Assembly (NCBI GenBank): GCA_021463145.1
Contig: JAJTWZ010000020.1
Location: 1-64,000 of the forward strand
Direction of reading: 5' to 3'
DNA from: Blastocatellia bacterium
GTDB taxonomy: Bacteria; Acidobacteriota; Blastocatellia; UBA7656; JADIYM01
DNA: 64,000 bases
A program made the translations under genes and the position numbers. Shown here piece after piece: positions 9,874-35,395 of this stretch. The stretch's first letter is position 1; every line of letters begins with the position of its first letter. The notes beneath the pieces are model-generated. The model saw only the letters and a list, made by a program, of their open reading frames with translations. It made no database searches and was not told the origin of the DNA.

Positions 9874-10740
9874 TCATTTTTCTACGATGTCGGCCTTGAC
9901 GGAGGACACGATGGCGAGCAGGTCCTTCTTTTCGGCCTCGGGGACGCTGAATGCGTCGAGCGCCGCAACCAGGTGACCGGCCGCCGTGTTCCAGTCGTCC
10001 TCGCTGATGCCCATTCCCTTGTGGGCCGTCTTCATGTCCCGCCCTGTATAGATACAGGGCCCACCGGCGGCGGCGCATACCTGGTCGACGATGTGTTGCC
10101 TGAGCTTGCCGGCGCTGTCCTGGCTGAGCCCCGCGAGGAAACGTTTCATCTTCGGATCGCCGTCCATCCGCTTGATGAACTCGTCGATGACCGCGGCAAT
10201 CGCGTCGTAACCTCCAAGCCGTTTGTAGAGCGACTTCGCCGCTCCGGGCGTCTCTTCCATGGTGACCGTGTCGGAAACGTAGACCCACGTTCCGCCGATC
10301 TTACGGCGCCAGTCGACGGCCCGCAGCGTGTAGGTTCGCTCGGCGGCGCCCTTCATCTTTTCGGTCACGCGCACGTGCCCGATCCACTGCACGACGTCGC
10401 CGTGCACGATGTAGGTGCCGTCGACGGTCTCGAGCTTCAGCGATTCGGCCGCCGAGAACAGACCGGCGTACACTCCTTTCACTGCATCGATTCCCATCGC
10501 GACGGTGCCGTCCGGACCGACGAGCATGACTCGCGGATCGTTCCAGTAGCAGGCCGCGGCCGCTTCTGCGTTGCGGGAATTGAAGGCGGCCTCGAAGCGC
10601 TTCGAGAGCTCCATGGCTTCGACGAGGATCTTGCCCTCCTTCGAGGACTTCTGTGGAAGCGCGAATGCCGGACTGGCGGCAACCGACGAGAGAAGCATGA
10701 TCGCCAGAGCGACCGGGCAACGGCGGAAGAGCGAGGACAT
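9874..10740 (-). CDS. Secreted NTF2-like / group I truncated haemoglobin fusion
   Basis: A 288-residue protein with three parts: a signal peptide (residues 1-28, ending SPAFA), an NTF2/SnoaL-like domain (about 33-165; SKRFEAAFNSRNAEAAAACYWNDPRVMLVGPDG), and a truncated haemoglobin domain (about 172-285; SLYKRLGGYDAIAAVIDEFIKRM). The likely proximal haem histidine is in KTAHKGMGI near residue 240. Known: truncated globins bind O2 or NO, and NTF2-like folds bind small molecules or act as adaptor domains. Export to the periplasm of a trHb1 fused to an NTF2-like domain is unusual; function is unknown. A very strong AAGGAGGAGG ribosome site lies upstream of the ATG. Monocistronic. Confidence 0.85.
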   Translation of the reverse strand: MSSLFRRCPVALAIMLLSSVAASPAFALPQKSSKEGKILVEAMELSKRFEAAFNSRNAEAAAACYWNDPRVMLVGPDGTVAMGIDAVKGVYAGLFSAAESLKLETVDGTYIVHGDVVQWIGHVRVTEKMKGAAERTYTLRAVDWRRKIGGTWVYVSDTVTMEETPGAAKSLYKRLGGYDAIAAVIDEFIKRMDGDPKMKRFLAGLSQDSAGKLRQHIVDQVCAAAGGPCIYTGRDMKTAHKGMGISEDDWNTAAGHLVAALDAFSVPEAEKKDLLAIVSSVKADIVEK

Positions 10741-10860: not shown

Positions 10861-11910
10861 CTACCCCTGCCCTGCCGTCGTGTGCTCGGAGCGCTCGATC
10901 TGTCTCGGCGAAAGCAACTCGGTCCTGGTTTCACGCTCGGCGCCACGGACCTCGCGCAACGCGTGCACGAAAGCCGACGCCCAAACGAACGCACCAGCCA
11001 GGTAGCCTGGCGACAGCACGAGCAGCTTCAAAAACAGGACGAAGTCGTGACGCGCCAGCCACACGAGCGCGCGCGCAAGCCTCACAGGCGGCACCAGGAC
11101 GCCAAGCCAGGGATGCCGTATCAGGTAGGGCATCAGCCATCCAAGCGCCGGATACGCGCGAATGACCTCGAACGGTGGGTTCATCCTGTGTCTGGCAAGC
11201 GCCGAACTCTTGCCAAGCGTCCGCTGGTACTGGATGACCTTTCTCCATCCGACCCGGTTCTGGTGCGTCACCCTGATGCCCGGATCGAACAGAATCCGCT
11301 CCCCCGCAATCGACAGCCGCCAGTTGTAGAGCAGGTCTTCGCTTGCCCTCACGTCGTCGAAGAGCCCGAACCGTTCGAATACTTCCCGGCGGTAACAGAT
11401 GTTCGCGGTCGGAATCGTGAACACCTCGCGGCGCGGCGATGTCGGAATGAACTCACGGAACTCGAGGAGGTAGCCAATGAGGCCGCTCGCACTTCCGGGG
11501 GTACCGTCGCAGATTGCGCCTCCAACGGCGGCATACTCCCCGGTGCTGTGCGCCTCTACCACCCGTTCGAGCAAGTCGGGTGCGGCTACACAGTCCGCAT
11601 CGATCATCGCCAGCAGCCCGGCACGGGCCTCGCGGATCGCGGCGTTGCGCGCCGTTCCGGGATAGGCCCTGTGGCCGAGCCTGATGAGACGAACCTGCGG
11701 AAACTGCTTCTCCACTATCGCAGCCGTCAAGTCGGCCGAACTGTCCGCAACGATGACCTCGAAGTCGAACGGTGGACTCTGGCTGACGATAGACTCGAGG
11801 CACGCCGCGATCGTCGCCTCACCGTTGTAGACGGGAATGACCACGGAAAGGCACGGCGACCTCCCCTCTCGACCGTCGTGGCTCACGATACCCAGGATCA
11901 ACGCCTCCAA
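10861..11910 (-). CDS. Family 2 glycosyltransferase
   Basis: A protein of about 349 residues with a GT-A fold: LSVVIPVYNGEATIAACLESI at the N-terminus, nucleotide-binding ADSSADLT, the DxD motif AMIDADC near 105 and the acceptor-side RASEDLLYNWR. Hydrophobic segments near residues 255-275 and 285-315 suggest membrane association. It probably transfers a sugar in surface-glycan assembly. The annotated start is TTG; an in-frame GTG at 11886 is an alternative, and neither has a well-placed ribosome site. A TATAGT box on the minus strand at 11955-11960 could be its -10. It diverges from the exporter genes. Confidence 0.85.
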   Translation of the reverse strand: MEALILGIVSHDGREGRSPCLSVVIPVYNGEATIAACLESIVSQSPPFDFEVIVADSSADLTAAIVEKQFPQVRLIRLGHRAYPGTARNAAIREARAGLLAMIDADCVAAPDLLERVVEAHSTGEYAAVGGAICDGTPGSASGLIGYLLEFREFIPTSPRREVFTIPTANICYRREVFERFGLFDDVRASEDLLYNWRLSIAGERILFDPGIRVTHQNRVGWRKVIQYQRTLGKSSALARHRMNPPFEVIRAYPALGWLMPYLIRHPWLGVLVPPVRLARALVWLARHDFVLFLKLLVLSPGYLAGAFVWASAFVHALREVRGAERETRTELLSPRQIERSEHTTAGQG

Positions 11911-12171
11911 AACTCTGCGACAGACGACCTCGGGGGCAGCAAGTGCAGTCCAGCACTATAGTTGACACGCCCCGCTCCCGTCCACGTACCGCTTCGGAAT
12001 GAGTCGCGCTCCGCTCCGAATGATACCAGTGTCGCCCTGGCTGACCGGATCGCAGCAGGACTACGCGACGAACCATTCAATCGGATGGATGCGGCGGAGA
12101 AATCTTGGCGACTCCTTCCACTCGGAGCACGGCGTCACCGCCTTTTCTGCCCATTCGAGCGGCCTCGTAGC

Positions 12172-12177
12172 TATAAT
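12172..12177 (+). promoter_or_regulatory. Putative -10 box for the exporter operon
   Basis: A perfect TATAAT lies 30 bases before the permease ATG at 12208, in a GC-rich stretch where such a hexamer is unlikely by chance. No good -35 hexamer is visible 16-18 bases upstream. It would give a 5' leader of about 25 bases. Confidence 0.4.
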
Positions 12178-12207
12178 GCGCGTTTGAGTTCCGCAACTTT
12201 TCACGAC

Positions 12208-12987
12208 ATGACGACCGCCGGCCAGGTTCGATCGCTGTGGCGATACCGCGAACTGCTCCGCAATCTGGTGGTGCGCGATATCAAGGTCCGGTACAAGCGC
12301 TCCGTGCTCGGTTTCGCATGGATGCTGCTGAATCCTCTCATCTCCATGATCGTGTTCTCGATCATTTTTCGCGAAGTATTCGGGATGGAGCAGGACTATC
12401 CGCTATATGTGATCTCCGCGCTTCTTTTCTTCAATCTGTTCTCGCTCGGCAGTTCGCAGGGGCTCAACAGCATCGTCGCGTCGTCGGGCCTGATTCGGAA
12501 GGTTGCCGTGCCGAAGTCGATCTTCCCGCTTGCCTCGGTGCTGGCCAACCTCGTCAACTTCGGGCTTTCGCTCATACCACTTGCGGCAGTCATGATTTTC
12601 ACCGGAGCGAAACTCACGCCGGCGCTCCTTGTGGTACCGGTCGGAATCCTGTCGATCTCGCTGTTTACCTACGGCATTTCACTCGCACTTGCGACGGCAA
12701 ACGTCTTTTATCGAGACGTGAGGTGGTTCTACGACTCGGCGCTTCTCATCCTCTTCTACGTCACGCCCGTGATCTATCCGGCGAAGGTCGTGCCCGAGCA
12801 GTTCCGTTTCCTGCTGGCGCTCAATCCGTTGACGACCATGCTCGAGGTCTTTCGCGCCCCGATCTACGAAGGTGTCCTGCCGGCGCCAGCGGCGCTCGGC
12901 GCCTCGTTGCTGTACGGACTGGGGGCGACGATCGTTGGCTGGATGGTATTCCACCGGTACGAAGACCGGTTCATCAACTTCATCTGA
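12208..12987 (+). CDS. wzm: ABC-2 polysaccharide export permease (Wzm/TagG-like)
   Basis: A 259-residue permease of an ABC-2 exporter that moves a lipid-linked polysaccharide across the inner membrane. Seen: the cytosolic N-terminus LWRYRELLRNLVVRDIKVRYKRSVLGFAW, diagnostic for this family, then six hydrophobic segments and the NVFYRDVRWF...VTPVIYPAKVVP loop. The ORF runs back to 11962, but the conserved sequence begins at ATG 12208, which also follows a TATAAT box. The ATPase gene starts 13 bp after the stop; the pair forms one transporter. Confidence 0.92.
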   Translation: MTTAGQVRSLWRYRELLRNLVVRDIKVRYKRSVLGFAWMLLNPLISMIVFSIIFREVFGMEQDYPLYVISALLFFNLFSLGSSQGLNSIVASSGLIRKVAVPKSIFPLASVLANLVNFGLSLIPLAAVMIFTGAKLTPALLVVPVGILSISLFTYGISLALATANVFYRDVRWFYDSALLILFYVTPVIYPAKVVPEQFRFLLALNPLTTMLEVFRAPIYEGVLPAPAALGASLLYGLGATIVGWMVFHRYEDRFINFI

Positions 12988-13000
12988 CCGGAAGCACGCG

Positions 13001-14605
13001 ATGGCCGCACCGAGCATTCCCTCAACGTCAGCCGCGCCGGGCACGCCGTCCGCAGCAGCTCAGGAGGCGGCGGCCTCTGGGGTCGCGATTCGCATCGACG
13101 ACCTGTCGGTCCGCCTGTCGCTTCAGAAGGAGGTCGTTCTCTCGTTGCGAGAGACGGCCATCCGATGGATCCAGCGCCGTCCCGTCGAGGTAGAGGAGTT
13201 CTGGCCGGTCCGCAACGTGAGTTTCGACGTCCAGCGCGGCGAGGCATTCGGCATCGTGGGCCGCAACGGCGCCGGCAAGTCGACAGTGCTGAAGGTCATC
13301 GCCGGCGTGCTGTCGCCGACGCTCGGAACGGTCGACGTGCGTGGACGCATCGCGCCGCTACTCGAGCTCGGCGCCGGGTTCGACTCCGAGATGACGGGCC
13401 GGGAGAATATCTACCTCTACGGCTCGCTGCTCGGGTTCCCGAGGCAGAAGCTCGACGAGCGGTTCTCCCACATCGTCGAGTTTGCCGAGTTGGAACATTT
13501 CATAGACGTGCCGCTCAAGAACTACTCGTCGGGAATGGCGTCGCGGCTCGGGTTCGCAGTCGCGACGGACGTGGACCCCGACATCCTCATCGTGGACGAA
13601 GCGCTCACGGTTGGCGACGCGCGCTTTCAGTTGAAATGCATGGAACGGATCGAGCTGTTCCGCCAGCGTGGCGTGACGATACTCTTCGTTTCTCACAATC
13701 CAGACCAGGTTAGACGGCTGTGTTCCCGCGCCTTGTGGCTCGACAATGGCGTCGTCCGGCTGCTCGGCGGCGTCGATGAAGTCGTGGACGGCTACACGGC
13801 GGTGGAGTACGAACTCCCCAGGCGCAGGACGGCCTGGACCAAGCCCGATCTTCCGTCGTTCGTCGAAGAGTCGGGCTCTGCCGGGAAACAGTCGGCGGTT
13901 TCGGTCGCGTACCGGTCGCCGAACGAGAATCGGCAAACCCCGCCGGTGCACGGCGAGTACGACTTCATCGACTTTACGCTCGTGGACGCAAGGTCGATGG
14001 AATTCTGCCGTGAAGCGTTCGGGGGCCGGGGACTGTCGGTTTCGAACAACATCGCGGTAGCCGAGCGAGTCCGGGCTGCGGGCGGCGATGCAGTGACGGC
14101 TGACCTCTCCGTCATCGATTTCCCCGACGACTCGTTCTCGTTCGTTTCGCTGATGGACTCGATTCACTTGCTGCCGGGACTCGAAGCCATCTCCCACGTG
14201 CTGGCGAGCTCCGCTCGCTGGGCGCGCGACTTCATATTCGTCCGGATGCCGAGCTACGAGGATGAAGAATATCTTCGAGCGTTGGGCCTCAAGCACTATT
14301 GGCACGACTGGTCGTGGTATCCGACGCACCCGCGCGTGGACCAGATCTCCAGCATCCTTCAATCTCTCGGTCTGGAGCAGTACCACGTGTCTCACCGCAG
14401 TCCGGCGCTTTCGAGCGACGCGGCTTCCATCCTTCCGCTTGCCGCTCCGCCTGACCAGGGCGTTTACGACGCAGAAATTCACGGTCCGAAGCTGTCGATC
14501 GAGTTTCCGCGGCCGATTTACGGCCAGATCGACGTTTTCATTGCCCTGCGTCGCTTCGAGACCGCCCAATGGCATGACATCATCACGAAAGGCACGCAGT
14601 CCTGA
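13001..14605 (+). CDS. wzt: Polysaccharide exporter ATPase (Wzt-like) with degenerate methyltransferase C-terminus
   Basis: A 534-residue protein. Residues 20-275 form the ABC ATPase: Walker A GIVGRNGAGKST (about 84), signature NYSSGMASRLGF (about 174), Walker B DILIVDEAL (about 195) and the H-loop LFVSHN. Residues about 315-530 align by eye with the methyltransferase encoded at 20253-21746: ARDFIFVRMPSYEDEEYLRALGL matches ARDFAFIRHPSFEESEYLESVGL, and EIHGPKLSIEFPRPIYGQIDVFI matches AVHGPKPFVRFDRPIYTQFDIFV. The SAM-binding glycine motif of that paralogue (DLGCGTGG) is replaced by DFTLVDARS, so this copy is probably not catalytic. Wzt C-termini normally recognise the glycan end; this one may do so with a dead methyltransferase fold. 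ATG 13001 follows GGAAG. Confidence 0.9.
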   Translation: MAAPSIPSTSAAPGTPSAAAQEAAASGVAIRIDDLSVRLSLQKEVVLSLRETAIRWIQRRPVEVEEFWPVRNVSFDVQRGEAFGIVGRNGAGKSTVLKVIAGVLSPTLGTVDVRGRIAPLLELGAGFDSEMTGRENIYLYGSLLGFPRQKLDERFSHIVEFAELEHFIDVPLKNYSSGMASRLGFAVATDVDPDILIVDEALTVGDARFQLKCMERIELFRQRGVTILFVSHNPDQVRRLCSRALWLDNGVVRLLGGVDEVVDGYTAVEYELPRRRTAWTKPDLPSFVEESGSAGKQSAVSVAYRSPNENRQTPPVHGEYDFIDFTLVDARSMEFCREAFGGRGLSVSNNIAVAERVRAAGGDAVTADLSVIDFPDDSFSFVSLMDSIHLLPGLEAISHVLASSARWARDFIFVRMPSYEDEEYLRALGLKHYWHDWSWYPTHPRVDQISSILQSLGLEQYHVSHRSPALSSDAASILPLAAPPDQGVYDAEIHGPKLSIEFPRPIYGQIDVFIALRRFETAQWHDIITKGTQS

Positions 14606-14631: not shown

Positions 14632-16092
14632 ATGGATCAGACGAAGCCCTCTGCCGACAACGCACCGCCAGCCCCGACGCCTTCGCGCAGCGAAGCGTTG
14701 TTCGAGCGGTCAATTGCGCCGCCAGTGGCGGCCTCGAGGGCCAATCCTCTCTCGGCGTGGCGGCTTCACGCGCGATTCGGCCCCGTAGTTGCCGCTCTCG
14801 AACGATTGCTGCGTCACGGCCGTCAGGCTTCGGCATCGCGCGTGCTCGCCCTCGGCCGTCGAAGCCCGGCCCTGGAGTCGCTGCTTCAACAATCGTTGTC
14901 AGCCAGTGCGGCCGGGCCTGCGCCGGCAGTCGAGCTCAATTGGATTGACGGGTCCTTGTCATTGCCATTGCCATACGAGGATGCGGCGTTCGACGCTGTC
15001 GTTGCGATAGATGCGCTTCCACTCGTCCCACCGTCGGCGCGCGAGCGCACCGTGCTCGAGCTTGGACGGGTCGCACGCCTGGGCGTCGTGCTGTCCTCGC
15101 CGTTCGACGGGCCGAATGTCGTTGCCGCCGAGCGCGCCGTCAATGGGCTGCATCGCTCTTCGCGCGGAGTGGATCATCCGGAGATTGGCCGGCACCTGGA
15201 GTACGGACTGCCCGATCTGGCGCTTACGTGCAGCTGGCTCGAACGCGTGTTCGCCCACGTGGCCACGATGCCGGTGGAGCACTTGCACGTGTGGCAGTCC
15301 ATGGCGTCGCTCGAACTCTTCGAACATTCCGAACCCACTGCCGCGGACGCAGCAGACGCGACATTCTTTCCGATCTCCGTTGGCGTCGGGGAGGGCGATC
15401 CCGCGTACCGGACGCTCGCCGTTGCCTCGAACCGGCCGTATGCGGTCGAGTTCCGTCCGCCGGGCGCCGGAAACGCCGAGTTCACCGCCCTCGCAATGCA
15501 TGTCGCGCTGGAAGGCGCAGCGCAGCGCCAGAGCCTTGACCGGCTCTTCCTCGCCGTTACGGCGGATCGGGAACGGGAGCGGCAAGAGTTCAGCGAGACA
15601 GTCGCCAGCCTGGCTGCCGAATTGCACGAGCGTGAGGCCATTGGCGAGAAGCTGCAGAGGGACCTTCGCGAGCGCGACCTGACCGTTGACCACCTGCAAG
15701 CGACGGTTGCCGAGCTTGAGCAGCGGATCGAGCTGACGGACGACCACGTCGAGAATCTGGAGGCCGCGATCGAGGCGACGCGCCTGCACGCCCGCAATCT
15801 CGATGCAATGCGCGATGAACAGCGGGCTCGAGCCGACGATCTCCAGGTCACCGTCGACGGCATGCACGATTCGGCAACCACATCGGCGCAACACATCGAA
15901 AATCTCGAGCAACTGGTCGCCACGCTGAGGGCGGAACTTTCCGAAGCAAGCGATCGGTGCCTCGAGGCCGACGCCCGGGCGTCGCAGGCGGTACAGAAGT
16001 TGGATGAGGTGTTCTCCAGCCGCGGCGGACGAGCGCTCGGTGGCTACGTTCGGATGAAACGGAGGCTGCTGGGGAAGGGCAAGGGGGAGTAA
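14632..16092 (+). CDS. Methyltransferase-like protein with long C-terminal coiled coil
   Basis: 486 residues. The N-terminal half has Rossmann/type-11 methyltransferase features (SRVLALGRRSPALESLLQQ, then SLSLPLPYEDAAFDAVVAIDALPLVPP), but the glycine-rich SAM motif is missing, so activity is doubtful. Residues about 300-460 form a near-continuous coiled coil with recurring units such as DDHVENLEAAIEATRLHARNL and AQHIENLEQLVATLRAEL. It ends in a basic tail (GYVRMKRRLLGKGKGE). No signal peptide. It lies 26 bp after the exporter ATPase with GAGAGGA before the ATG. A length-setting or scaffold role like that of WbdD, in which a coiled coil separates a terminating enzyme from the membrane, is inference from context. 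Confidence 0.75.
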   Translation: MDQTKPSADNAPPAPTPSRSEALFERSIAPPVAASRANPLSAWRLHARFGPVVAALERLLRHGRQASASRVLALGRRSPALESLLQQSLSASAAGPAPAVELNWIDGSLSLPLPYEDAAFDAVVAIDALPLVPPSARERTVLELGRVARLGVVLSSPFDGPNVVAAERAVNGLHRSSRGVDHPEIGRHLEYGLPDLALTCSWLERVFAHVATMPVEHLHVWQSMASLELFEHSEPTAADAADATFFPISVGVGEGDPAYRTLAVASNRPYAVEFRPPGAGNAEFTALAMHVALEGAAQRQSLDRLFLAVTADRERERQEFSETVASLAAELHEREAIGEKLQRDLRERDLTVDHLQATVAELEQRIELTDDHVENLEAAIEATRLHARNLDAMRDEQRARADDLQVTVDGMHDSATTSAQHIENLEQLVATLRAELSEASDRCLEADARASQAVQKLDEVFSSRGGRALGGYVRMKRRLLGKGKGE

Positions 16093-16245: not shown

Positions 16246-19200
16246 ATGTGCGGGATAGCCGGCATCCTACTGAGCGACACAACCTCGCCGAATGCTCAGA
16301 GCCGGTTTGCGCGTCTCGACGCGATGGTCGAAGCCCTCGTCCGCAACGATCGAACAGCTCGACGCAGACTATCGGGAGAGAGAATCGCAATCGGCGAGTG
16401 CGGGCCGGCAATCGGCGGCCTGCCCGAATCCCGCCAGCTCGTTTCGAACGAGGATGGCACTATCTGGCTGGCGTTTGACGGCGAGTGCTTCAACGGGCGG
16501 GAACTGCGTGACGCCCTGATGGGCTCCGGTCATCGATTTGCGACCGGTCACGCCGCCGAGGCCGTCGTCCACGGATACGAGGAGTGGGGCATTCGAGGCG
16601 TCGCCGAGCGACTTGTTGGAGCCGCGGCCTTCTGCCTCTGGGACGCGAGAGCGGGAAAGGCATTCCTCGTTCGCGACCGGCTCGGGGTCAAGCCGCTCTA
16701 CTTCACGGCACGAGCTCCCGCACTGGCTTTTTCTACCGGACTACGGTCACTGGCGCGCTCCGGCCTTCTCTTGCCCAAACTGGACGAAGAGGCCCTGTGG
16801 GCACACCTCTACTGTGGGTTTACGCCTCTATCGAGAACGCTGGTCGCGGGCGCACAGCGCTTGCCAGCAGCGCACATTCTCGAATGGTCAGCCGAGTCTG
16901 GCGCGACGAGCGTCTCGCGCTACTGGGACTTCCCATTTGAGGACGAGGATTGCCGTCTGACGATGGCCAGCGCGGCGGGCGAAGTGAGGGACCTGCTCGA
17001 CGACGCCGTCCTCGGGCAGACGGGCGACGGCCCGGCCGGATGTTGGCTCACCGGAGAACTCGATTCGTCGGCAGTAGCGGCGTTTGCGGCGCGGCACTCG
17101 AATCGCTCGATCCGGGCGTTCTCGCCTCTGCTTCCAGGTATCGGCGAGACAGCATTGAACGCCGCTCGCCGTGTTGCGAAGCACATCGGCGCCGAACATA
17201 CGACCGCTCAGTTCGACGAGGCTGCTTACATCGCCGGGTTCGACCAGACGCTCGGCAGCACCGATGAGCCGGCTTCTGACGATTCGGCGCCGGTCGCGGG
17301 ACTGCTCTCGGAGTTTGCAGCAACCGGTGTTGGGATAGTACTCACTGGCTTCGGCGCGGATGAGCTCTTTGGCGGCCGTAAGTCTCATCGCCGTTTCGTG
17401 TTCGGCGAGCCCACGCTGCCAGCGGGCGCCCGATCCGAGCGACGCCGCAGCTTGTCCAACTTGCGAGAAGCTCTGGCCGTCCGGGCCGGAATCCACGCGC
17501 CGGCTCCGGTCCTGGACCTGACAAGCCCGCACAGCGGAATCCCGTATTCAATACAGCCCGAGTTCCTGTGGTGCCTGTTGAATCCGGACCGTCGTCCGTC
17601 GCTCGAAGTGTTCCGCGGATCTCTCGAGCGGATCGAAGGAGACATCGATGCTGGCCCTCCGGGCTCGCTGCGTCGGGCAATGGCCATCGATATCCAATTG
17701 CGGCTCGGCCAGGGAAACCTGATGACGGCCGGTGCGGAGGCGAGGTCCGCAGGCATCGATTTGAGGGCGCCATTTCTCGACCACCGCTTAGTGGAATATG
17801 CCTTCCGGCTGCCGGACCGGTTCAAGGTTGAACGCGATCAGGGCAACCTGGTGCTGCGCGAAGCCTTGCGCGGACTGTTGCCCGACGACGTCGTCGATGA
17901 CCGCTCGCGCGGTCCGCGTCTGCCGCTGGCGTCGTGGTTCCGCGGTCCGTTGCGTGACTACATTCGTGAAGCGCTGCTCGACTCCCACCTGGTCGACGAT
18001 GGAATGTTCACGAGGCAGATGCTGGAGGCGATACTCGTTGCGCATTTCGACCTGGACGTCGACATGTCGCGAACGATCGGATCGCTCGTGCGCATAGACC
18101 GATGGTGGCGGGCAGTTCGGGACGAGATCGTCGCGGCGCTGCCGCCCGACGGGGCAATTCCAGCCGGACCTCGCACCAGTGAGCCGACGGTCGACATCCT
18201 GATTCCGGTCTACGAGAACTTCAATCTGGTCCGCGACTGCGTCCGGTCGATTCGGGCATTCACCAGAATGCCGTTTCGCGCGATTCTGCTCGACGACAGG
18301 TCAAGCGATGCGACGCAGGAGAAGCTGCGACGGCTGGTGGCCGACGACTCGCGCTTCGAGCTCGTCTGCAACGAGGAAAACCTCGGATTTCTGGCCAACT
18401 GCAACCTTGGTTTCGAGCGTTGCTCCGCCGACTACATTGTCCTGCTCAACTCGGACACCGTAGTTGCCCCTGGGTGGCTGGAGCGCATGGTTGCCTGTGC
18501 CGAGAGCGATCCGGCGATCGCGATCGTAAATCCGCTCACGAACGAATCGGGCAACACCTCCGTCCGATTCGCGCCAGGGCTGAACCTGCTGACGATGGCG
18601 AAGGCGATTGCGGAGTCGTCTCCGCGCGATTACCCGGATCTCACAACGGCCGTCGGGATGTGCATGCTCGTGCGACGCTCGGCCACGCAGTTGCTCGGTA
18701 CGTTCGATCCGGCGTACCTGAATGCGTACTGCGAAGAGTCGGACCTCTGCATGCGATTCACAGAAGCAGGGCTGCGCGTGGTCGCCGCCGACGATGCCTT
18801 CATCTATCACAAGGGTTGGGCTTCGTACGACGAGCTGAAGAAGAAGCGCTACTACGAGCACAACCGGGCGATCTTCGACGCTCGCTGGTCGGTTCCGTAC
18901 GATCGCGATTGGGGGAGATATGCCCGGCGCGATCCACTCCAGCCTACGCGCGACCGGTTGTTGCGCTTTTCGATCGGTCGAGAAGATGCCGACAACCTCG
19001 ATCTGATCGATGCCCGATCGTCTCGGCTCTCGACAAGCGCGACCCTGCACGCCGTCGGCGATGGCAAGCGTGCGTCGTCGGCTGCGGTTCTGCTTCCCGG
19101 GCGATCGCCAATCGGCGGAAAGCCGGAATACGACTCGTTCCTGCAGAACCGCGCGGCCAATCCGCTCATGCGATTCGACGAGCGACGGCTGGCCTTACCG

Positions 19201-20313
19201 ACCTCAGCAACGATTCGGTCCCTGCCTTCGCTCGACCGCAACCGGCTGAGGATCACGTTTCTGGTTGCCAGTCTCCATCTTTCCGGAGGTGTCATCCAGA
19301 TCGTGCAACTGGCGCGAGAGATGCTGCTGGCCGGTCACGACGTCCGGATCGTCACCGAGTCGCCAGAGGACACTCCCGAAAAGCAGAACCTGTGGTTGCA
19401 GCCCCTCGTCTACAGGAACCGCCGCCACCTCATCGAGAACTTTCCCGAGAGCGACGTGGTCGTCGCCACCTTCTGGGTCACGGCTCATCGATATCTGCGC
19501 GAGTTGCGTGAGCGATACGACTTCGTTTCCGCATACTACATCCAGGACTACGAGGCGTGGTTCTACCCGGAGTCGGACTGGCTCAATCGAAACAACGTCA
19601 TCCATTCGTATTCGCGAGCCGAACACCACATCGTGATGTCGAGATGGCTGGCGAACCTCGTCGACGCGCACGGCCCACGCTGCGAGATTGTCTCGCTGGG
19701 ACTGGATCTGGGCGTCTTTTATCGGAGGGATACTCAACCGGCAACGCATCCGCGGGTGCTTTCGGTAGCCGCCATCGGGCCGGAAGTAGCCCGCCGTGGC
19801 TTTCCGGACACCGTCGAGGCTTTCCGGCGCGTGAAGGAGGCCCGGCCCGATGTCGAAATCGTTCTTTACGGGACGGAGCGTGAGCAGCTGCCCGGCCTGC
19901 CGTTCGAGGTGACTTGCGCCGGCCGCATCTACGATCAGAACAAGGTCGCGGAACTGATGTCGTCAGTGGATGTCGTGCTGGATGCTTCGCTCTGGCAGGG
20001 CTTCGGCCGGCCGGGACTCGAGGCGATGGCCTGTGGCGCCGTCCCGGTCCTCACGAATTTCGGCGGATTGAACGAGTATGCCGTCGACGGCGTAAATTCG
20101 CTGCTCGTGCCGCCAGGCGATCCCGCCGCCGCTGCAACGGCAATTCTCGACCTGCTCGGCGATCCAACTCGATACGCCAGGATGCGGAACGAAGGACTGG
20201 CAACCGCTCCCAGATTCGCCCACACCCTGGAAGCGGAGCGTCATCTCGAACTCTACGAGCGATGGGTATCCGAGAAGTTCCCGCAGAGAGGACGCGAGTT
20301 GTCGATGCGATAG
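16246..20313 (+). CDS. Asparagine-synthase-like / GT2 / GT4 three-domain fusion
   Basis: 1355 residues. Domain 1 (1 to about 630) is glutamine-dependent asparagine synthase-like. It begins MCGIAGILL, so Cys2 fixes the start. It keeps LTGFGADELFGG and APFLDHRLVEYAFRLP, but the PP-loop SGGLDSS reads TGELDSS, the RGPD motif is lost (VRNDRTAR) and the glutaminase NGE reads DGE. Domain 2 (about 645-900) is GT2: VDILIPVYENFNLVRDCVRSI, LLDDRSSDAT, LLNSDTVV. Domain 3 (about 1000-1345) is GT4: ITFLVASLHLSGGVIQIVQLAREM and WQGFGRPGLEAMACGAVPVLTN. Asparagine-synthase paralogues amidate sugars or build glycans in other surface loci. With damaged catalytic motifs, domain 1 may be regulatory or structural here. 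The 3' end overlaps the convergent gene by 61 bp. Confidence 0.88.
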   Translation: MCGIAGILLSDTTSPNAQSRFARLDAMVEALVRNDRTARRRLSGERIAIGECGPAIGGLPESRQLVSNEDGTIWLAFDGECFNGRELRDALMGSGHRFATGHAAEAVVHGYEEWGIRGVAERLVGAAAFCLWDARAGKAFLVRDRLGVKPLYFTARAPALAFSTGLRSLARSGLLLPKLDEEALWAHLYCGFTPLSRTLVAGAQRLPAAHILEWSAESGATSVSRYWDFPFEDEDCRLTMASAAGEVRDLLDDAVLGQTGDGPAGCWLTGELDSSAVAAFAARHSNRSIRAFSPLLPGIGETALNAARRVAKHIGAEHTTAQFDEAAYIAGFDQTLGSTDEPASDDSAPVAGLLSEFAATGVGIVLTGFGADELFGGRKSHRRFVFGEPTLPAGARSERRRSLSNLREALAVRAGIHAPAPVLDLTSPHSGIPYSIQPEFLWCLLNPDRRPSLEVFRGSLERIEGDIDAGPPGSLRRAMAIDIQLRLGQGNLMTAGAEARSAGIDLRAPFLDHRLVEYAFRLPDRFKVERDQGNLVLREALRGLLPDDVVDDRSRGPRLPLASWFRGPLRDYIREALLDSHLVDDGMFTRQMLEAILVAHFDLDVDMSRTIGSLVRIDRWWRAVRDEIVAALPPDGAIPAGPRTSEPTVDILIPVYENFNLVRDCVRSIRAFTRMPFRAILLDDRSSDATQEKLRRLVADDSRFELVCNEENLGFLANCNLGFERCSADYIVLLNSDTVVAPGWLERMVACAESDPAIAIVNPLTNESGNTSVRFAPGLNLLTMAKAIAESSPRDYPDLTTAVGMCMLVRRSATQLLGTFDPAYLNAYCEESDLCMRFTEAGLRVVAADDAFIYHKGWASYDELKKKRYYEHNRAIFDARWSVPYDRDWGRYARRDPLQPTRDRLLRFSIGREDADNLDLIDARSSRLSTSATLHAVGDGKRASSAAVLLPGRSPIGGKPEYDSFLQNRAANPLMRFDERRLALPTSATIRSLPSLDRNRLRITFLVASLHLSGGVIQIVQLAREMLLAGHDVRIVTESPEDTPEKQNLWLQPLVYRNRRHLIENFPESDVVVATFWVTAHRYLRELRERYDFVSAYYIQDYEAWFYPESDWLNRNNVIHSYSRAEHHIVMSRWLANLVDAHGPRCEIVSLGLDLGVFYRRDTQPATHPRVLSVAAIGPEVARRGFPDTVEAFRRVKEARPDVEIVLYGTEREQLPGLPFEVTCAGRIYDQNKVAELMSSVDVVLDASLWQGFGRPGLEAMACGAVPVLTNFGGLNEYAVDGVNSLLVPPGDPAAAATAILDLLGDPTRYARMRNEGLATAPRFAHTLEAERHLELYERWVSEKFPQRGRELSMR

Positions 20314-21746
20314 GCGACGATCCTGTCGGCCGGCCCGTTGGTATTCGTGTCGCGGAGAATCCACAGGCCCCATTCCGGGACGTAGACTCCGATAGAGTCG
20401 ATACCGTCGCCATCCCAGTCGCCGACAACGGGCAGACCGCCTGGCGGACCGAATACGAAGCTCGTGTCCTCGCTGTCGAAACTCCCTTCGCCCCTCAGAT
20501 ACCAGGCGCCATCTGCCGGATCGTAGAGACCGACTTTGTCGCGGCCACTGCCGTTCCAATCGCCGGCAATCGCAAGCCGGTTCTCCTGAGGAGGGCCGAA
20601 CTGGAACTCCTCGTCCGCAGGACCGGGTCCGTTGGAATGGCGAACCTTCCAGCGCGACGCATCGGAATGGTAAACGCAGATCGTGGAAATTCCAGACCCG
20701 GTCCAGTCCCCGGTGGTTGGCTGCCCCCCGGGCGACGAGAACGACAAGGTAACGTCGGCGAGCCCGGCATCCTGCGAGTTCCGGAGAAAGAAGCTGGCGT
20801 CGGCCGGATCGTAGGCGCCAATCCCTTCGTGTCCGTCGCCGTCGAAGTCTCCAACCAATGGCAGCCAGCCGCGGCCTTCGGCTCCGTACTTCGCCGTCCT
20901 CTCCGAGCCATCACGGCCGCGCAATCTCCAGATCGACGTGGAAGGATCATAGCCGCCGAGATCCGTCGCCAATGGGCCGGCTGGAGGCTTCCGTGACGAG
21001 ACAATTCGAATCGGCCATTGCGGCGAACTCTCGTAAAGATCCGAAAAAACGATGGCTCGCCAGGCGTCGTCGGTCATCTCCGGGTTCAGCCTGACGAAGA
21101 TATCGAATTGCGTGTAGATCGGCCGGTCGAATCGGACGAACGGCTTCGGCCCGTGGACCGCCTCGTCGTAAGTGACCGTATCCCGGGGAGCGGTGATCGG
21201 GATAATCTGGTCGAACGAAGAGTCGGCAATAAGCAGTCGTGGCACTATCGCGTACTCGGTCCACCCCATTCGCTCGAAGAACCTCTCGAAGTCCTCGATC
21301 CGCATCATTGCCGGATGTCCGGTCCAGTCGGTCCAGGCAAGACGGAGGCCCACCGATTCGAGGTATTCGGATTCCTCGAAGGACGGATGTCGAATGAAGG
21401 CGAAGTCCCGCGCGGCGCGTGCGAATCGCTCCAGCACGTCGAAGGAAATGGCGTCGCCAGGCAGATGCTCGAGGAAATCCATCGCCGAAACGAATCGCAC
21501 GCAACGGTCCGGTACCGTGGTTGCGACGACGTCAGCTTCGACGACCGGGTAACCTGCCTGGCGCGCTCCCGCAACGTCCTTTGCGTCCAGTTCCAGTCCA
21601 AGCGACGACTTCGCGCCGAACCGGCGAATGCAGTGATCCGTCGATCCGCCGGTGCCACAGCCGAGGTCGATGAACTCGAATTCGCCCCTGGAAAGTCCGT
21701 CAATGGCTCGCTGGATGTCCACGGCCCACCGAGTATGCGAGAGCAC
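20253..21746 (-). CDS. SAM-dependent methyltransferase fused to FG-GAP/VCBS-like repeats
   Basis: 497 residues from GTG 21746. The N-terminal methyltransferase domain has an intact SAM motif (FIDLGCGTGGSTDHCIRRFG, glycines at 29-34), an acidic ELDAKD and a post-motif EADV. Residues about 295-490 hold four repeats of roughly 46 residues around GDFDGDGHEGIGAYDPA and GDWDGDGIDSIGVYVPE, with Ca-binding-like DxDxDG loops. The same repeat builds the lipoprotein at 23465. No signal peptide is visible, so the repeats would be cytoplasmic unless exported by an unseen route. The methyltransferase half is paralogous to the C-terminus of the exporter ATPase. A TTGACA-17-CATACT promoter suggests the true start may be the in-frame GTG at 21722. 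Confidence 0.85.
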   Translation of the reverse strand: MLSHTRWAVDIQRAIDGLSRGEFEFIDLGCGTGGSTDHCIRRFGAKSSLGLELDAKDVAGARQAGYPVVEADVVATTVPDRCVRFVSAMDFLEHLPGDAISFDVLERFARAARDFAFIRHPSFEESEYLESVGLRLAWTDWTGHPAMMRIEDFERFFERMGWTEYAIVPRLLIADSSFDQIIPITAPRDTVTYDEAVHGPKPFVRFDRPIYTQFDIFVRLNPEMTDDAWRAIVFSDLYESSPQWPIRIVSSRKPPAGPLATDLGGYDPSTSIWRLRGRDGSERTAKYGAEGRGWLPLVGDFDGDGHEGIGAYDPADASFFLRNSQDAGLADVTLSFSSPGGQPTTGDWTGSGISTICVYHSDASRWKVRHSNGPGPADEEFQFGPPQENRLAIAGDWNGSGRDKVGLYDPADGAWYLRGEGSFDSEDTSFVFGPPGGLPVVGDWDGDGIDSIGVYVPEWGLWILRDTNTNGPADRIVAYRIDNSRPLCGNFSDTHRS

Positions 21747-24405: not shown

Positions 24406-27400
24406 TCAATCCTTACGGCTTTCGAGGCCGGCCAGGACGTGCGTCAGCCAGGCGTTCGTCAGTTTCTCGGAGACGCTGTTCATCTTCAGCCGCGCGGCGA
24501 GGTTCCCGAAGTCCACCTCGTCGAGAATCTGATCCTGATTGAAGCACGAAAAGACGACCGTTTCCTTGCCGGTCTCGGGGTCAACGTGCTTCTGCAGGCA
24601 CTGTGCGCATATCTCCTTCATCATGCACTGCATCGACGAATTGATGGATCCGATCGCCACGTGCCCGGCTTTCAGGTATGGCTGCAGCACTCCGTGACGA
24701 GCCGCCTTTACCGCCGCCATCATCCGATCGGAGCCGATCGCGATGATCCTGTCCACCTCGTGGAACTGGAATCGAGGCGCACCGAGTGCGCCGTTCGCGT
24801 AAGCGACCATGCATTCGACGATGTTGCCAGTGAAGCTCAGGTCGCCGTCGCGGCGAGGCTCGATCCGGGGCTCGACATCGGCGGTCCAGACGACCTGGTC
24901 CGTACCGGCTTCGATCTCGTCGCGTTTGAACACGTCGCCCGGATGCTTGTAACCGGCAAAATAGAGCACGCGGTTGCCGTGGTCCTTCAGTGCCTTCGCG
25001 ATCGAGAAGAGCACGGCGTTGCCAAGCCCGCCGCCGGCCAGCAGCACGGTCTCTCCAGTGGGAATTTCAGTCGGGGTCCCGGTCGGGCCCATGACGACCA
25101 CGGGGTCACCGGGCGCGAGTCGGGCGCACAGCCGCGAACTGCCTCCCATCTCGAGCACGATCAAGCTCAACAGTCCCTTCTCACGGTCAACCCACGCGCC
25201 AGTAAGTGCAATGCCTTCCATCATCAGCCGCGTGCCGTTGGAGAATAGGCTCCGGGTCTCGAAGTTCTGCAGGCGATAAAACTGACCCGGTTGGAATTTT
25301 CTGGCCGCAAGCGGCGAGCGTACGACGACCTCGACGATCGTTGGCGTGAGTCGTTCGACGCAGACGACCGAGGCGAGCAACTCGTCGTCGAGTCTCGCGA
25401 AGAGTCCGCGGAGTGCATCGTCGCGCTCGACCTGCCGAGTAGGATCGAGTCTCTCGAGCCGGTCCGCAAACAGCCGGACGACGTGCGGATACCCGTCCTT
25501 CGCGGAGGCCATCGCCTTGACGACGTTGCCTGCGTATATCGGATGGTTGTCGCCGTAAAAACTCACCGTGCGGCCATCCTTGCAGTAGGAAGTGAAGAAG
25601 CCCGACTTGTCGGCTTCGACACGGACGCCATCCGTTTCGGTAACCTCGGCGCGATACGTCTCGAAGTACTCTCCCCAACGGTCACGCTCGAACGTTCCAG
25701 GGTGCTCCTTCTCGTAGACGGCGTTCGGGTGCGTTCCGGCAGCGACCATCATCGATCGCGCCGGGAGCGTCACCCTTTCGCCGGTCGGCGTGAATTTTCC
25801 ATCGCCGGAAAGCGTGAGCCGCTCGAAGACGACGGACTCCAGGGCGCCGTGAGCGCCTGCGACGGCCTCACGCGGATCCAGCATCTCCGCAAAGTAAATG
25901 CCCTCTTCGAGCGCCTTGATGACCTCTTCGTGGTTGAGACGGTACGCCGGCGCATCCTGCAGCCGTTTTCGATAGGCGATCGTGACCCCGCCCCACGCGC
26001 GGCAGAGCGACGCGAAATCCGGCGACTCGCCGGCAGCCGCCGCGCGCTCGCGCTCGGCAGCGATTGCGCGAGCGTGAAGCAGAAACTCGTCCGCCACCTC
26101 CCGTTCCTCGGCGTCGTATCCTCGCAGAACCTGTTCGGCCCCTCCCGGTGCGGCCGCCGCAAGCTCCGCGAAGCGCGCCGCGTATTTTTCGCACTGCACG
26201 ACGTAGTAAGCGAGGCACTCGGTAGCGGTGTCGATGGCCGTCAGCCCGCCGCCCACGACGACCGCCGGCAGGCGCACCTGGAGATTCGCCATGGATTCGC
26301 GCTTGAACGCTCCCGTGAGCTGCAGCGCCATCAGGAAGTCGCTCGCCTTGCGGATGCCCCGCATCAGGTTGTTCACCATGGGGACGATCGTCGGCCGGCC
26401 CGCGCCCGAGGCGAACGCGACGTGATCGAATCCCATGGACCAGGCGTCGTCGAGCTCGATGGTCCCCCCGAAACGGACACCGCCGTAGGAGCGAATCGAA
26501 CGCCGGCGCGCCAGAGTAAGCTGCACGAGCGTGAGGAAGTTCTTGTCCCACCGGACAGTGATGCCGTATTCGGAGACGCCGCCGAAGCCCGACAACACGC
26601 GCTCGTCGAGCTCGCACTCGATCTCTCGCACGTCACGGATCGGCTGCGGGACGGAGCCGGCGGCCCCGGTCCAGTCGTCCGGCAGCGGCTCAACCTTGAG
26701 CCCGTCGATGCCAACGACGCCGAATCCCTCGTTTGCGAGGTAATGCGCGAGCGTATAGCCGGCCGGCCCCATTCCCACGACCAGGACGTTGATGCCGTTG
26801 TAAGGCAGCGCGTGGGGACGGCGTATGTTCAGCGGATTCCAGCGTGTGAGCAGGCCATAAATCTCGACGCCCCACGGAAGCTCCAGTACGTCGGTCAGCA
26901 CTCGCGTCTCGGCCTGTGGGATGTTCACCGGATCCTGCTTCTGGAAGATACAGCTCTTCATGCAGTCGTTACAGATCCGATGCCCGGTGCCCGGACACAT
27001 CGGGTTGTCGATCATTATCGTGGCGAGCGCCGCGATCGTTTCGCCGTCCCGTTCGAGCAGATGCATCTCGGAGATCCGCTCGTGGAGCGGGCAGCCGGCC
27101 AACGGAATCCCGAGCGGATTCTTCCTGACGGTCGAATCCTTCTCGCGTATTCCAGTCGAGCAGGAGTCCTTCTCGCGCTCGTGGCAGTAGAGACAGTAAT
27201 CGATTTCGTCGAGCGCGAGCTTGCGGGGCATTCGACGGTCGGTGAGCTCGAATCCGTCGCGCCGGCGGCGCCGCGATTCCGGCGCTGCAATCAACTCGGG
27301 AAGTTCCGTAAACGGACGCTCGATCTGCACGAGTTGCTGATAGTCCATCGGCTCGGCCACGCGCAGTGACGCCCAACGCCGATAGCCATGGTCGCCAGCG

Positions 27401-28047
27401 TGCAGCTGAGCGAGGTGATGGCAATAGACTTCGACGGGATCAAGGATCGCATCGATGGCGGCGAGTTCGGCGTCTTCGGACGAAACAGGCGCAACCTCGA
27501 GTCTCGTCGCGAGCGCTCGCACGCGTGATCTCGACGCAGTGTCGCCATCCGGGCCCGGCTTTCGGATGTCCGCGTCGAGTCCGAGCAACTCCATTACGGC
27601 TCTTGCAACCGCGACCTCGTCATCGGCCGGGCGTTCGCGCAGCACTGCGGCGAGGATACGGTCAACCGCGGCGCTCGCTTCGGCGAGCCCCATCTCCGGG
27701 TCTTCCCTGGCGAAGCGTTTGTGGACCCGCCGCCGCACGAACTGCTTCTTGAACTCGAAGACTACGGCGTGGTCGCGGGCCGCCTCTCGAAGCGCGCCGG
27801 CGTCTTCGCTCACACCGAACATCCGCTCGAGGAATGCCGCGAGGCGTGGCGCCATGCGCACGAGCACGTCCGAAACCTCCGCCGGCTTCAGCTCGGCGCC
27901 ACTTGCGTATGCTTCCCACGCGGCCGCCAGTTCAGGATCGAGTGCCGCCACTTCGAGGCGAAATGCAGTTGTCAACTCCGCAAGCTTTCGAGGCTCGTAG
28001 AGGTCGGCGTAGGAGAATCCGGGAATGCCAAGCGCTTCAAGCGTCAC
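24406..28047 (-). CDS. Large Fe-S flavoprotein: GltD-like plus PyrK-like modules
   Basis: 1213 residues from GTG. After a helical N-terminal region of about 270 residues come clustered cysteines (YCLYCHEREKDSCSTG near 282, then MCPGTGHRICNDCMKSC near 350), as in the Fe-S region of glutamate-synthase small-subunit-type oxidoreductases. The FAD/NAD Rossmann motif is NVLVVGMGPAGYTLAHYLA near 417, with a second one, VVVGGGLTAIDTATE, near 600. From about 895 to 1175 there is an FNR/PyrK-like module (FQPGQFYRLQNFE, VLLAGGGLGNAVLFSIAKAL) ending in a ferredoxin-like cysteine set (SMQCMMKEICAQC...VFSC). It probably moves electrons between NAD(P)H and a quinone or ferredoxin partner; the substrate is not identifiable. 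Divergent from the next gene. Confidence 0.8.
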   Translation of the reverse strand: MTLEALGIPGFSYADLYEPRKLAELTTAFRLEVAALDPELAAAWEAYASGAELKPAEVSDVLVRMAPRLAAFLERMFGVSEDAGALREAARDHAVVFEFKKQFVRRRVHKRFAREDPEMGLAEASAAVDRILAAVLRERPADDEVAVARAVMELLGLDADIRKPGPDGDTASRSRVRALATRLEVAPVSSEDAELAAIDAILDPVEVYCHHLAQLHAGDHGYRRWASLRVAEPMDYQQLVQIERPFTELPELIAAPESRRRRRDGFELTDRRMPRKLALDEIDYCLYCHEREKDSCSTGIREKDSTVRKNPLGIPLAGCPLHERISEMHLLERDGETIAALATIMIDNPMCPGTGHRICNDCMKSCIFQKQDPVNIPQAETRVLTDVLELPWGVEIYGLLTRWNPLNIRRPHALPYNGINVLVVGMGPAGYTLAHYLANEGFGVVGIDGLKVEPLPDDWTGAAGSVPQPIRDVREIECELDERVLSGFGGVSEYGITVRWDKNFLTLVQLTLARRRSIRSYGGVRFGGTIELDDAWSMGFDHVAFASGAGRPTIVPMVNNLMRGIRKASDFLMALQLTGAFKRESMANLQVRLPAVVVGGGLTAIDTATECLAYYVVQCEKYAARFAELAAAAPGGAEQVLRGYDAEEREVADEFLLHARAIAAERERAAAAGESPDFASLCRAWGGVTIAYRKRLQDAPAYRLNHEEVIKALEEGIYFAEMLDPREAVAGAHGALESVVFERLTLSGDGKFTPTGERVTLPARSMMVAAGTHPNAVYEKEHPGTFERDRWGEYFETYRAEVTETDGVRVEADKSGFFTSYCKDGRTVSFYGDNHPIYAGNVVKAMASAKDGYPHVVRLFADRLERLDPTRQVERDDALRGLFARLDDELLASVVCVERLTPTIVEVVVRSPLAARKFQPGQFYRLQNFETRSLFSNGTRLMMEGIALTGAWVDREKGLLSLIVLEMGGSSRLCARLAPGDPVVVMGPTGTPTEIPTGETVLLAGGGLGNAVLFSIAKALKDHGNRVLYFAGYKHPGDVFKRDEIEAGTDQVVWTADVEPRIEPRRDGDLSFTGNIVECMVAYANGALGAPRFQFHEVDRIIAIGSDRMMAAVKAARHGVLQPYLKAGHVAIGSINSSMQCMMKEICAQCLQKHVDPETGKETVVFSCFNQDQILDEVDFGNLAARLKMNSVSEKLTNAWLTHVLAGLESRKD

Positions 28048-34800: not shown

Positions 34801-35395
34801 CCGGGCGGGCGCCGTTGACGCTGAAGCCCGTGCCGCTGCCGAATCCACCTCCAGACGGGGTAACGCCGGGCTGCAGAGTCGCGAGTTGGAGAACGTTGCG
34901 TCCATTGAGCGGGAGGCCCTGAACGCGCTTGCGATCGACGGTAGTGCCGAGCGTAGACGACTCTTTCTCAATGAGCTCGGTCGCCGCCGTGATCTCGACC
35001 GTTTCGGTCGATCCCGAGACGTTCATCGTCGCGTCGAGCCGCACGTTGCGGTTGGGCTCGACCTTCAGATCGAGGAGTCGCGTCTCGGCGAAGCCGGTGG
35101 CCGTGATGACGATGTTGTAGTTGTCCGGGTCGACTTCGAGGAAAGTAAAACTGCCGTCTTCTCCCGTCTGCAGCGTCTTGAGGATCTTCCCGGAGGAGAC
35201 GCTTTCGATCTGGACGGTGGCTCCGGCTACAACGGCTCCATTCGGGTCCGTTACGGTACCGCTGATGGTGCCGCGGACGCCCTGAGCAAAAACGGCGACG
35301 TTCGCAACTATCAGGCAGACCAGAGCGAACGTGAAGTGCGCAAGAAACGCGCTTCGACGGCCGGCCGGTCCGCGGTGAACAGGATTGAGTCTCAA
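31862..35395 (-). CDS. TonB-dependent receptor with carboxypeptidase-regulatory-like domain (Oar-type)
   Basis: 1177 residues. Signal peptide 1-38 (ending VAVFAQG), then a carboxypeptidase-regulatory-like beta-sandwich (about 41-125; GTISGTVTDPNGAVVAGATVQIESVSSG), then a plug (VQGLPLNGRNVLQLATLQPGV, NIQLDGANNNEV, RSGTSEYHGNARIFWRP) and a long 22-strand-type barrel ending in LAARINF with a terminal Phe. Such receptors import large or complex substrates in Acidobacteria and relatives. The start codon is TTG at 35395; GGGAGG lies eight bases upstream, which decides it. No susD-like partner is adjacent. A 26-base palindrome lies about 125 bp upstream. Confidence 0.93.
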   Translation of the reverse strand: MRLNPVHRGPAGRRSAFLAHFTFALVCLIVANVAVFAQGVRGTISGTVTDPNGAVVAGATVQIESVSSGKILKTLQTGEDGSFTFLEVDPDNYNIVITATGFAETRLLDLKVEPNRNVRLDATMNVSGSTETVEITAATELIEKESSTLGTTVDRKRVQGLPLNGRNVLQLATLQPGVTPSGGGFGSGTGFSVNGARPVENNIQLDGANNNEVATGGTVGFQPRPDAVQEFRLLTSNYDAEFGRNSGAIVNVVTRSGTSEYHGNARIFWRPTVLSAARYFDKATTNPITIKNADGDFRRPFERKEFGGNLGGPIWIPKLYDGREKTFFFVDYEGRRQKVGATATLSGLPLAAERLGDFSGLGRVIRDPATGDPFPGNRIPLDRFSPIAGYYTQFLPVGDATGRATVGGDNITNYDQWTMRFDHYLTQNQTINYTFNYFDQAGISAFAFGGSSVPGFGSTDKATTQNHIIRHTWTITPTLVNSFAVNYSRNNFPAVLPTSKVSPRDIGFTGNFIINEDLAGAPRITLNDRGLVLGNTIQGPQIRIPENFQIQESVSWSKGDHRFKFGFDGTLYLQDQAFLFINQGIFTYSGRFGGNTTGDDFADLLIGNSPIAFQTGNAGERDYEQKYVALFGQDSWRLRDDLTLTFGVRYEYTSPITDERNRVSYYRPGSTSQLLVNGGLIEPQTGAVIGVRPGGRPPNGIVFVGDPDNVLGGTVPDGGVAKDFNNFAPRVGLAYAPYAEDGIWRKLLGDRETAIRAGLGVYYGYIIGDTALQQLSAPGFNATGAFFFPGSGTLADPFAPDPFPNFRGDQGTLPNPFATENVYVTAPITNTAQPIDPNIRTPYTYQWNLTVERGFLENYVATVSYVGTRGRKLYTRVEVNPALGTFFPTQRAIPVPTASNANSRRDNDDIRGGIQQLSSAATSDYHAFQAQLQRRFADGLTFQLAYTWSKSISDADSQRGSLDIIDLSFGRSLSSFDAPHRFVGNFIWELPFWKGTTGVTNRLADGWGVGAIATFQSGTPFTVGNLFDTLGTGGGVFSFADNGAPFVLLDPRANDSRAFNVDAFRSFGDPASGFVLATDFRRGTHAANEHRLNNGVNNWDLIVSKKTRLWGETSNLELRFEAFNAFNHTQFNAIDLNLGNIVLDPNTGRPDPLKSSFGKYTGAAESRVIQLAARINF

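Follow-up and report, generated by a model that had tools for sequence, protein, structure and literature searches.

An asparagine synthetase-like module with eroded active sites, fused to two glycosyltransferase domains in a Wzm/Wzt locus of a Blastocatellia bacterium

Beta-lactam synthetase and carbapenam synthetase (CarA) are AsnB-fold proteins in which the glutaminase half is out of use. Among surface-polysaccharide proteins, WbpS and WbqG, members of the curated family TIGR03108, convert a uronic acid to a uronamide (PMC7468200), and wsfA, an asparagine synthase homologue, is listed in the S-layer glycan cluster of Paenibacillus alvei (PMC2943079). Glycan assembly pathways that depend on ABC transporters combine polymerase and terminator modules flexibly and use coiled coils as rulers (PMC11231755), and the carbohydrate-binding domain of Wzt recognizes the modified chain end (PMC9445017). 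WsaE combines a methyltransferase with two glycosyltransferases (GTs) (PMC2943079), and a modification module joined to two GTs beside Wzm/Wzt is already known as a layout from WsaE and from ORF6 of Klebsiella O7. Here we describe a protein in which an AsnB-like module is fused to a GT2 and a GT4 domain. It is encoded in a 64,000-nucleotide stretch of a Blastocatellia bacterium (assembly GCA_021463145.1, contig JAJTWZ010000020.1, positions 1 to 64,000), called the window below. An earlier reading of the window, made from its letters without database searches (the sequence-only reading), had singled out this gene. The module has lost residues from both of its active sites, and on balance we favor a non-catalytic role for it within a chain-building glycosyltransferase.

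Architecture and integrity of the fusion gene

The whole AsnB-like part of the fusion protein comprises residues 1-625, followed by the GT2 and GT4 domains (Table 1). Pfam matches to GATase_7 (residues 60-169), Asn_synthase (246-620), Glycos_transf_2 (651-814), and Glyco_trans_1_4 (1169-1306) all score well over their curated cut-offs. The sequence-only reading had seen three folds in a single 1355-residue open reading frame (ORF) with no frameshift, and the continuous ORF, the Pfam matches, and the codon signal bear this out. A plausible ribosome-binding site, GGGAGAGG, lies nine bases 5' of the ATG. At its other end, the gene overlaps the 3' end of a convergent methyltransferase gene by 61 bases (20253-20313).

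That separate genes were joined by an error in sequencing or assembly, a hazard that the sequence-only reading had raised for sequencing errors, is scarcely credible. Such a joining, or a frameshift, is unlikely because a codon-usage score picks one frame through all parts of the fusion (0.015, 0.209, 0.309, 0.137, and 0.218), with the five other frames lower. GC content by codon position is continuous along the gene, with no composition break. Read by eye, the AsnB/GT2 joint is in frame and contains no in-frame ATG, GTG, or TTG; the nearest in-frame start is a GTG 78 bases 5' of the joint, within the conserved AsnB C-terminal helix. The joint also lies well inside its contig. In favor of an error, the genome is a draft of 173 contigs and no other searched genome has the fusion. 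We take the fusion as genuine.

The domain-architecture search proposed in the sequence-only reading (AsnB + GT2 + GT4) returned no further AsnB-GT fusion in 80 loci of a genome collection, 7 genomes of the same order, 161 of the class, a sample of 395 from the phylum, or 72,556 plasmids. The phylum sample (395 other genomes) overlaps the class set (161 others), and in both of these scans the top two to three candidates of each genome were scored, at E <= 1e-85. For the genome collection, a match to one of six 8-residue words was required, and near relatives of the window may have been left out. No description of an AsnB-glycosyltransferase fusion was found in the open-access literature, a search outside which most subscription papers fall.

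Loss of active-site residues from the AsnB-like module

We aligned residues 1-640 of the fusion with about 90 homologues and with E. coli AsnB, which served as a numbering guide. Columns at least 95% identical in the homologues were treated as near-invariant (n = 64), and departures were counted leave-one-out for each homologue. The AsnB-like module departs from the consensus at 22 of these 64 columns, compared with a median of 1 for the homologues, a largest gap-free count of 6, and 12 for the outgroup E. coli AsnB. In a tree of AsnB domains its terminal branch is 2.56 (median, 0.66), and because of this long branch the domain could not be reliably placed.

Residues are named here by E. coli numbering unless they carry a fusion number. 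In the glutaminase-like domain, the N-terminal nucleophile is kept as Cys2, directly after Met1, as the sequence-only reading had stated. Its observations that RGPD (R30-G-P-D33) and NGE are changed also hold; the former reads NDRT, and the latter reads DGE, with Gly79 and Glu80 of the fusion kept. Four residues of the former glutamine pocket are replaced, namely, R49 (by Gly), V53, N74 (by Asp), and D98 (by Ala). Glutamine recognition in human ASNS uses a hydrogen-bond network of R48, V52, N74, G75, E76, and D96 (PMC6748925), and the equivalents of four of these six are lost, together with those of K466 and E364.

In the synthetase domain, the PP-loop reads TGELDSS in place of SGGLDSS, again as had been noted, so that the PP-loop glycine (G236) is Glu. 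The K449 position is Ser; among the 91 aligned homologues, 86 have Lys there and four have a gap, which leaves a single Ser, contributed by the window sequence itself. The human counterpart of this lysine, K466, is essential in AS-B, and human ASNS E364A/Q variants are inactive (PMC6748925). The acidic residue (D/E) at 279 and the near-invariant K534 are also changed. The sequence-only reading had called the later AsnB motifs intact. GADELFGG and PFLD are indeed present, but a Phe precedes GADELFGG, at the E348 position, where many relatives have Glu or Asp; this position is not invariant among relatives, and the Phe taken alone says little.

The decayed motifs that the sequence-only reading described are thus confirmed, and the erosion is wider, extending to the R49, V53, N74, D98, D/E279, E348, K449, and K534 equivalents. 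As judged from the alignment, erosion hits both active sites at once, unlike in any of the about 90 homologues. Gaps aside, none of the aligned homologues changes R49, N74, D98, G236, or K449. Two other AsnB genes of the same genome have standard motifs, one (L002) as included in the alignment counts and the other (L003), like the closest homologues, as read by eye. Kept in the module are C1, G75, E76, D238, S239, S240, and D351, along with the fold-wide conserved residues G125, D133, R143, D144, G147, K149, and P150. The changes cluster on ligand residues and are not spread over the fold-defining conserved positions. We judge the module very probably inactive as a glutamine-dependent amidotransferase.

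An AlphaFold2 model of residues 1-640, built with 48 homologues, shows a complete AsnB fold with a mean predicted local distance difference test score (pLDDT) of 88.5 and a predicted template modeling score (pTM) of 0.91. Its low-confidence stretches include residues 57-62, beside the former glutamine pocket. Top Foldseek matches of the model are the hydroxyamidotransferase TsnB9 (7ylz), human ASNS, E. coli AsnB (1ct9), and beta-lactam synthetase. The two-domain AsnB fold is therefore predicted to be retained, in the sense of compatibility rather than proof, because the homologues used had intact sites. The best NCBIfam match of the protein is TIGR03108 (XrtA/PEP-CTERM system amidotransferase; 293.3 bits, far short of the cut-off of 816.9); TIGR01536 (glutamine-dependent asparagine synthetase/AsnB) scores 256.2 bits, under its cut-off of 267.1. 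The ancestor of the module was probably linked to sugar amidation, because the closest curated family, TIGR03108, consists of surface-polysaccharide amidotransferases.

For the AsnB part, the sequence-only reading had proposed a regulator, a nucleotide sensor, or a divergent amidotransferase that acts on the added sugar. The evidence agrees best with an accessory role without catalysis, and the sensor and the amidotransferase are disfavored. In its amidotransferase proposal, sugar amidation is probably right for the ancestor, but activity now is improbable, since erosion affects the glutamine pocket as well as the synthetase site. A live enzyme with relocated catalytic residues would account for the Cys placed directly after the initiator Met and for the kept E76, D238, S239, S240, and D351 equivalents, and WbpS-type relatives do act on sugar acids (PMC7468200). 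It would also have to work with four of the six glutamine-network residues replaced, Glu for the PP-loop Gly, and Ser for the essential Lys; the aligned homologues, gaps aside, keep R49, N74, D98, G236, and K449.

It is highly improbable that the module senses a nucleotide or metabolite and thereby gates the glycosyltransferases. The predicted two-domain fold with its interdomain cleft and the partly retained PP-loop (D273, S274, and S275 of the fusion) would suit such a sensor. However, a Glu in the PP-loop and a Ser in place of K449, the lysine that contacts the nucleotide intermediate in E. coli, would disturb binding of the ATP phosphates, and the D98-to-Ala and R49-to-Gly changes remove glutamine recognition.

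Glycosyltransferase domains and the Wzm/Wzt locus

The sequence-only reading judged both glycosyltransferases functional in appearance, and for GT2 its motifs agree: LDDRSSD, NSDT, and EESDLC are kept, with a PF00535 score of 93.7 bits. In GT4, the motif QGFGRPGLEAMACG, with Gln for the first Glu of EX7E and the second Glu present, is family-typical and occurs in the same or a closely similar form in relatives from four loci (L022, L023, L024, and L058); every close relative has this Gln. GT4 has, however, lost an Arg near residue 1176 that all of its five closest relatives have (A-R-P has become A-A-I-G-P). In a by-eye alignment, this Arg appears equivalent to positive residues that, in GT4 enzymes, stabilize the pyrophosphate of the donor and that are important in WsaF (PMC3898925). 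GT4 activity is uncertain because of this loss at the putative donor site.

In the GT2-GT4 model (mean pLDDT, 67), the linker and a portion of GT2 are of low confidence; Foldseek matches of the model include general GT4 enzymes, among them MshA and BshA. A WsaF_N profile gave a weak resemblance to the window GT4 (E = 0.0027). A rhamnose donor, by likeness to WsaF, was rejected: the PHPSYPPLE signature of this GT4 rhamnosyltransferase of Geobacillus stearothermophilus (PMC3898925) is absent, and GT4 of the fusion reads QGFGRPGLE. WsaF does not occur among the Foldseek matches listed.

The fusion gene is the last of a co-directional, operon-like run of Wzm, Wzt, P0002, and the fusion, with gaps of about 10, 26, and 153 bases. 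Promoter-like sites between these genes do not exceed expectation, and terminator-like sites are absent. The adjacent, co-directional Wzm/Wzt pair marks this as an ABC-transporter-dependent polysaccharide locus. By eye, the Walker A, Walker B, and signature motifs of Wzt are intact. Its C-terminal domain is 36% identical to the convergent methyltransferase, a paralogue, and has lost motif I for S-adenosylmethionine (FIDFTLVDARS, versus FIDLGCGTGGS in the paralogue); a third relative of the domain is encoded elsewhere (G000:C85:36316-36945). Motif I of P0002 is also eroded (RVLALGRRSP; a relative, P0007, has GVLDVGDSAG), and it is just as possible that P0002 is an active enzyme of an unusual type.

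Table 1. Positions of the fusion, its domains and sites, and neighboring genes in the window
Feature	Position	Strand	Basis or remark
AsnB-like + GT2 + GT4 fusion (P0001)	16246..20313	+	single uninterrupted ORF, 1355 aa
Class II glutaminase-like (Ntn) domain, residues 1-200	16246..16845	+	Pfam, homologue alignment
RGPD position (E. coli R30-G-P-D33), residues 34-37, reads NDRT	16345..16356	+	alignment
Asn_synthase (synthetase) domain, residues ~231-625	16936..18120	+	Pfam, alignment, AlphaFold2, Foldseek
PP-loop TGELDSS (consensus SGGxDSS), residues 269-275	17050..17070	+	alignment
TGFGADELFG: Phe369 at E348 position, Asp372 kept	17344..17373	+	alignment
Ser554 at K449 position	17905..17907	+	alignment
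GT2 domain, residues ~645-870	18178..18855	+	Pfam, motifs
GT2-GT4 linker, residues ~871-1000	18856..19245	+	pLDDT <50 over most
GT4 (GT-B) domain, residues ~1005-1340	19258..20265	+	motifs, model, Foldseek
Standalone GT2, divergently oriented	10861..11910	-	
ABC-2 permease, Wzm-like	11962..12987	+	Pfam; NCBIfam NF050109 below cut-off
ABC ATPase, Wzt-like, C-terminal methyltransferase-like domain 13949-14548	12998..14605 (start approximate)	+	Pfam, motifs
P0002: methyltransferase-like domain, eroded motif I + C-terminal coiled coil	14632..16092	+	
Convergent methyltransferase, intact motif I (FIDLGCGTGGS), FG-GAP-like repeats	20253..21746	-	

Relatives of the GT2-GT4 part adjoin Wzm/Wzt in two loci (L023 and L024). 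One of these, from a Xenococcaceae genome (L023:5347-8808), encodes a sulfotransferase, a coiled coil, GT2, and GT4 in one 1153-amino-acid protein near Wzm/Wzt. A genome of the same order as the window (G003) joins a P0002-like domain, a coiled coil, GT2, and GT4 in one 1141-amino-acid protein, and this fusion ties P0002 to the protein type described here; its GT4 gave no alignment with the window GT4 in a pairwise comparison. Further GT2-GT4 relatives occur on Methylosinus and Enterobacter plasmids, the latter adjoining an ABC transporter pair. High-scoring GT2-GT4 relatives are absent from the class and phylum samples, so lateral gain is possible.

Elsewhere in the window, an ORF at 9874-10740 (minus strand) combines a SnoaL/DUF4440-like domain with a bacterial globin domain. 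The minus-strand ORF at 24406-28047 (1213 amino acids) has a weak Pyr_redox_2 match (residues 419-610) as its sole Pfam match. At 31862-35395 (minus strand) lies a 1177-amino-acid outer-membrane beta-barrel protein with a carboxypeptidase-regulatory-like domain (PF25183, PF13620); opposite it runs a similarly long ORF (1209 amino acids) with no Pfam match.

Proposed role and comparison with known systems

We suggest that the fusion is a surface-polysaccharide glycosyltransferase of the Wzm/Wzt pathway, in which GT2 and GT4 each probably add one sugar linkage. The ancestor of the AsnB-like module would be an AsnB-fold amidotransferase of WbpS type, producing sugar uronamides in pathways of this kind; the module itself would have lost glutamine binding and ATP-dependent synthetase chemistry while keeping its fold. 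It may now serve as a scaffold or dimerization domain, or bind the growing chain or partner proteins, acting near P0002 and Wzt, encoded directly upstream. We consider it somewhat probable that a WbpS-like module of a chain-building GT2-GT4 protein has in this way become a non-catalytic scaffold or glycan-recognition domain within a polymerase/exporter assembly.

The main rival is decay: selection on the gene, or on the operon as a whole, would have relaxed, leaving an open ORF in which the AsnB module and, in part, GT4 no longer have a function. We regard such decay as rather unlikely. The erosion of both AsnB sites, the loss of motif I in two neighboring methyltransferase-like domains, and the long terminal branch would all be expected of it. 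Several further observations weigh against a retained non-catalytic module. Selection may have relaxed along the entire gene, since GT4 has lost its Arg and the codon-usage score is lowest in the glutaminase-like part (0.015, versus 0.14-0.31 elsewhere). The fusion is known from a single copy, which leaves no comparison that could reveal purifying selection on the eroded domain, and the retained Cys2, E80, D273, S274, S275, and D372 of the fusion exceed the needs of a purely structural role. Against decay, the frame stays open over 1355 codons, the ribosome-binding site is good, a complete fold is predicted with confidence, and the GT2 and Wzt motifs appear intact by eye. The sparing of fold-defining positions, with changes concentrated on ligand residues, also argues against it.

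The preferred reading, a retained non-catalytic module, could be extended to the locus. Modification enzymes may have been turned repeatedly into readers here, with the Wzt pseudo-methyltransferase replacing the carbohydrate-binding domain, the GT2-GT4 pseudo-amidotransferase recognizing a modified (amidated or methylated) sugar, and dead writers steering chain building and export. We think this extension unlikely; what speaks for it most is that one methyltransferase domain is intact and its paralogue, attached to Wzt, is eroded. Together, the eroded Wzt domain, its intact paralogue, and the fusion make it testable whether dead modification enzymes are glycan readers in export and chain-length control. 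If selection has kept the AsnB module, it would be a pseudoenzyme of the asparagine synthetase family at work in glycan assembly.

Among fusions of a modifying enzyme with two GTs, an AsnB-fold module with both sites eroded and its fold predicted intact was not found elsewhere in this study. ORF6 of Klebsiella pneumoniae O7, a methyltransferase-kinase with a coiled coil and two GT2 modules, resembles the fusion in its N-terminal modification module, its two GTs, and its ABC-transporter-dependent locus (PMC11231755). In ORF6 the terminator is active and the coiled coil is internal, whereas the window has an AsnB-like N-terminal module and a coiled coil on a separate upstream gene. WsaE of Geobacillus stearothermophilus likewise places a modification module and two GTs beside wzm/wzt, but bears a methyltransferase where the fusion bears the AsnB-like module. 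P0002 is comparable to WbdD of E. coli O9a, a coiled-coil methyltransferase ruler adjoining Wzm/Wzt in a similar layout, but has no recognized kinase and an eroded S-adenosylmethionine motif. WbpS and WbqG represent the best curated family for the AsnB part and share its surface-polysaccharide context, yet known members are catalytic and have no GT fusion in the descriptions consulted, whereas both sites of the fusion are eroded. Beta-lactam synthetase and CarA share the AsnB fold, and both are among the Foldseek matches. They retain a working synthetase site, whereas the fusion has an eroded synthetase site and has kept its Cys.

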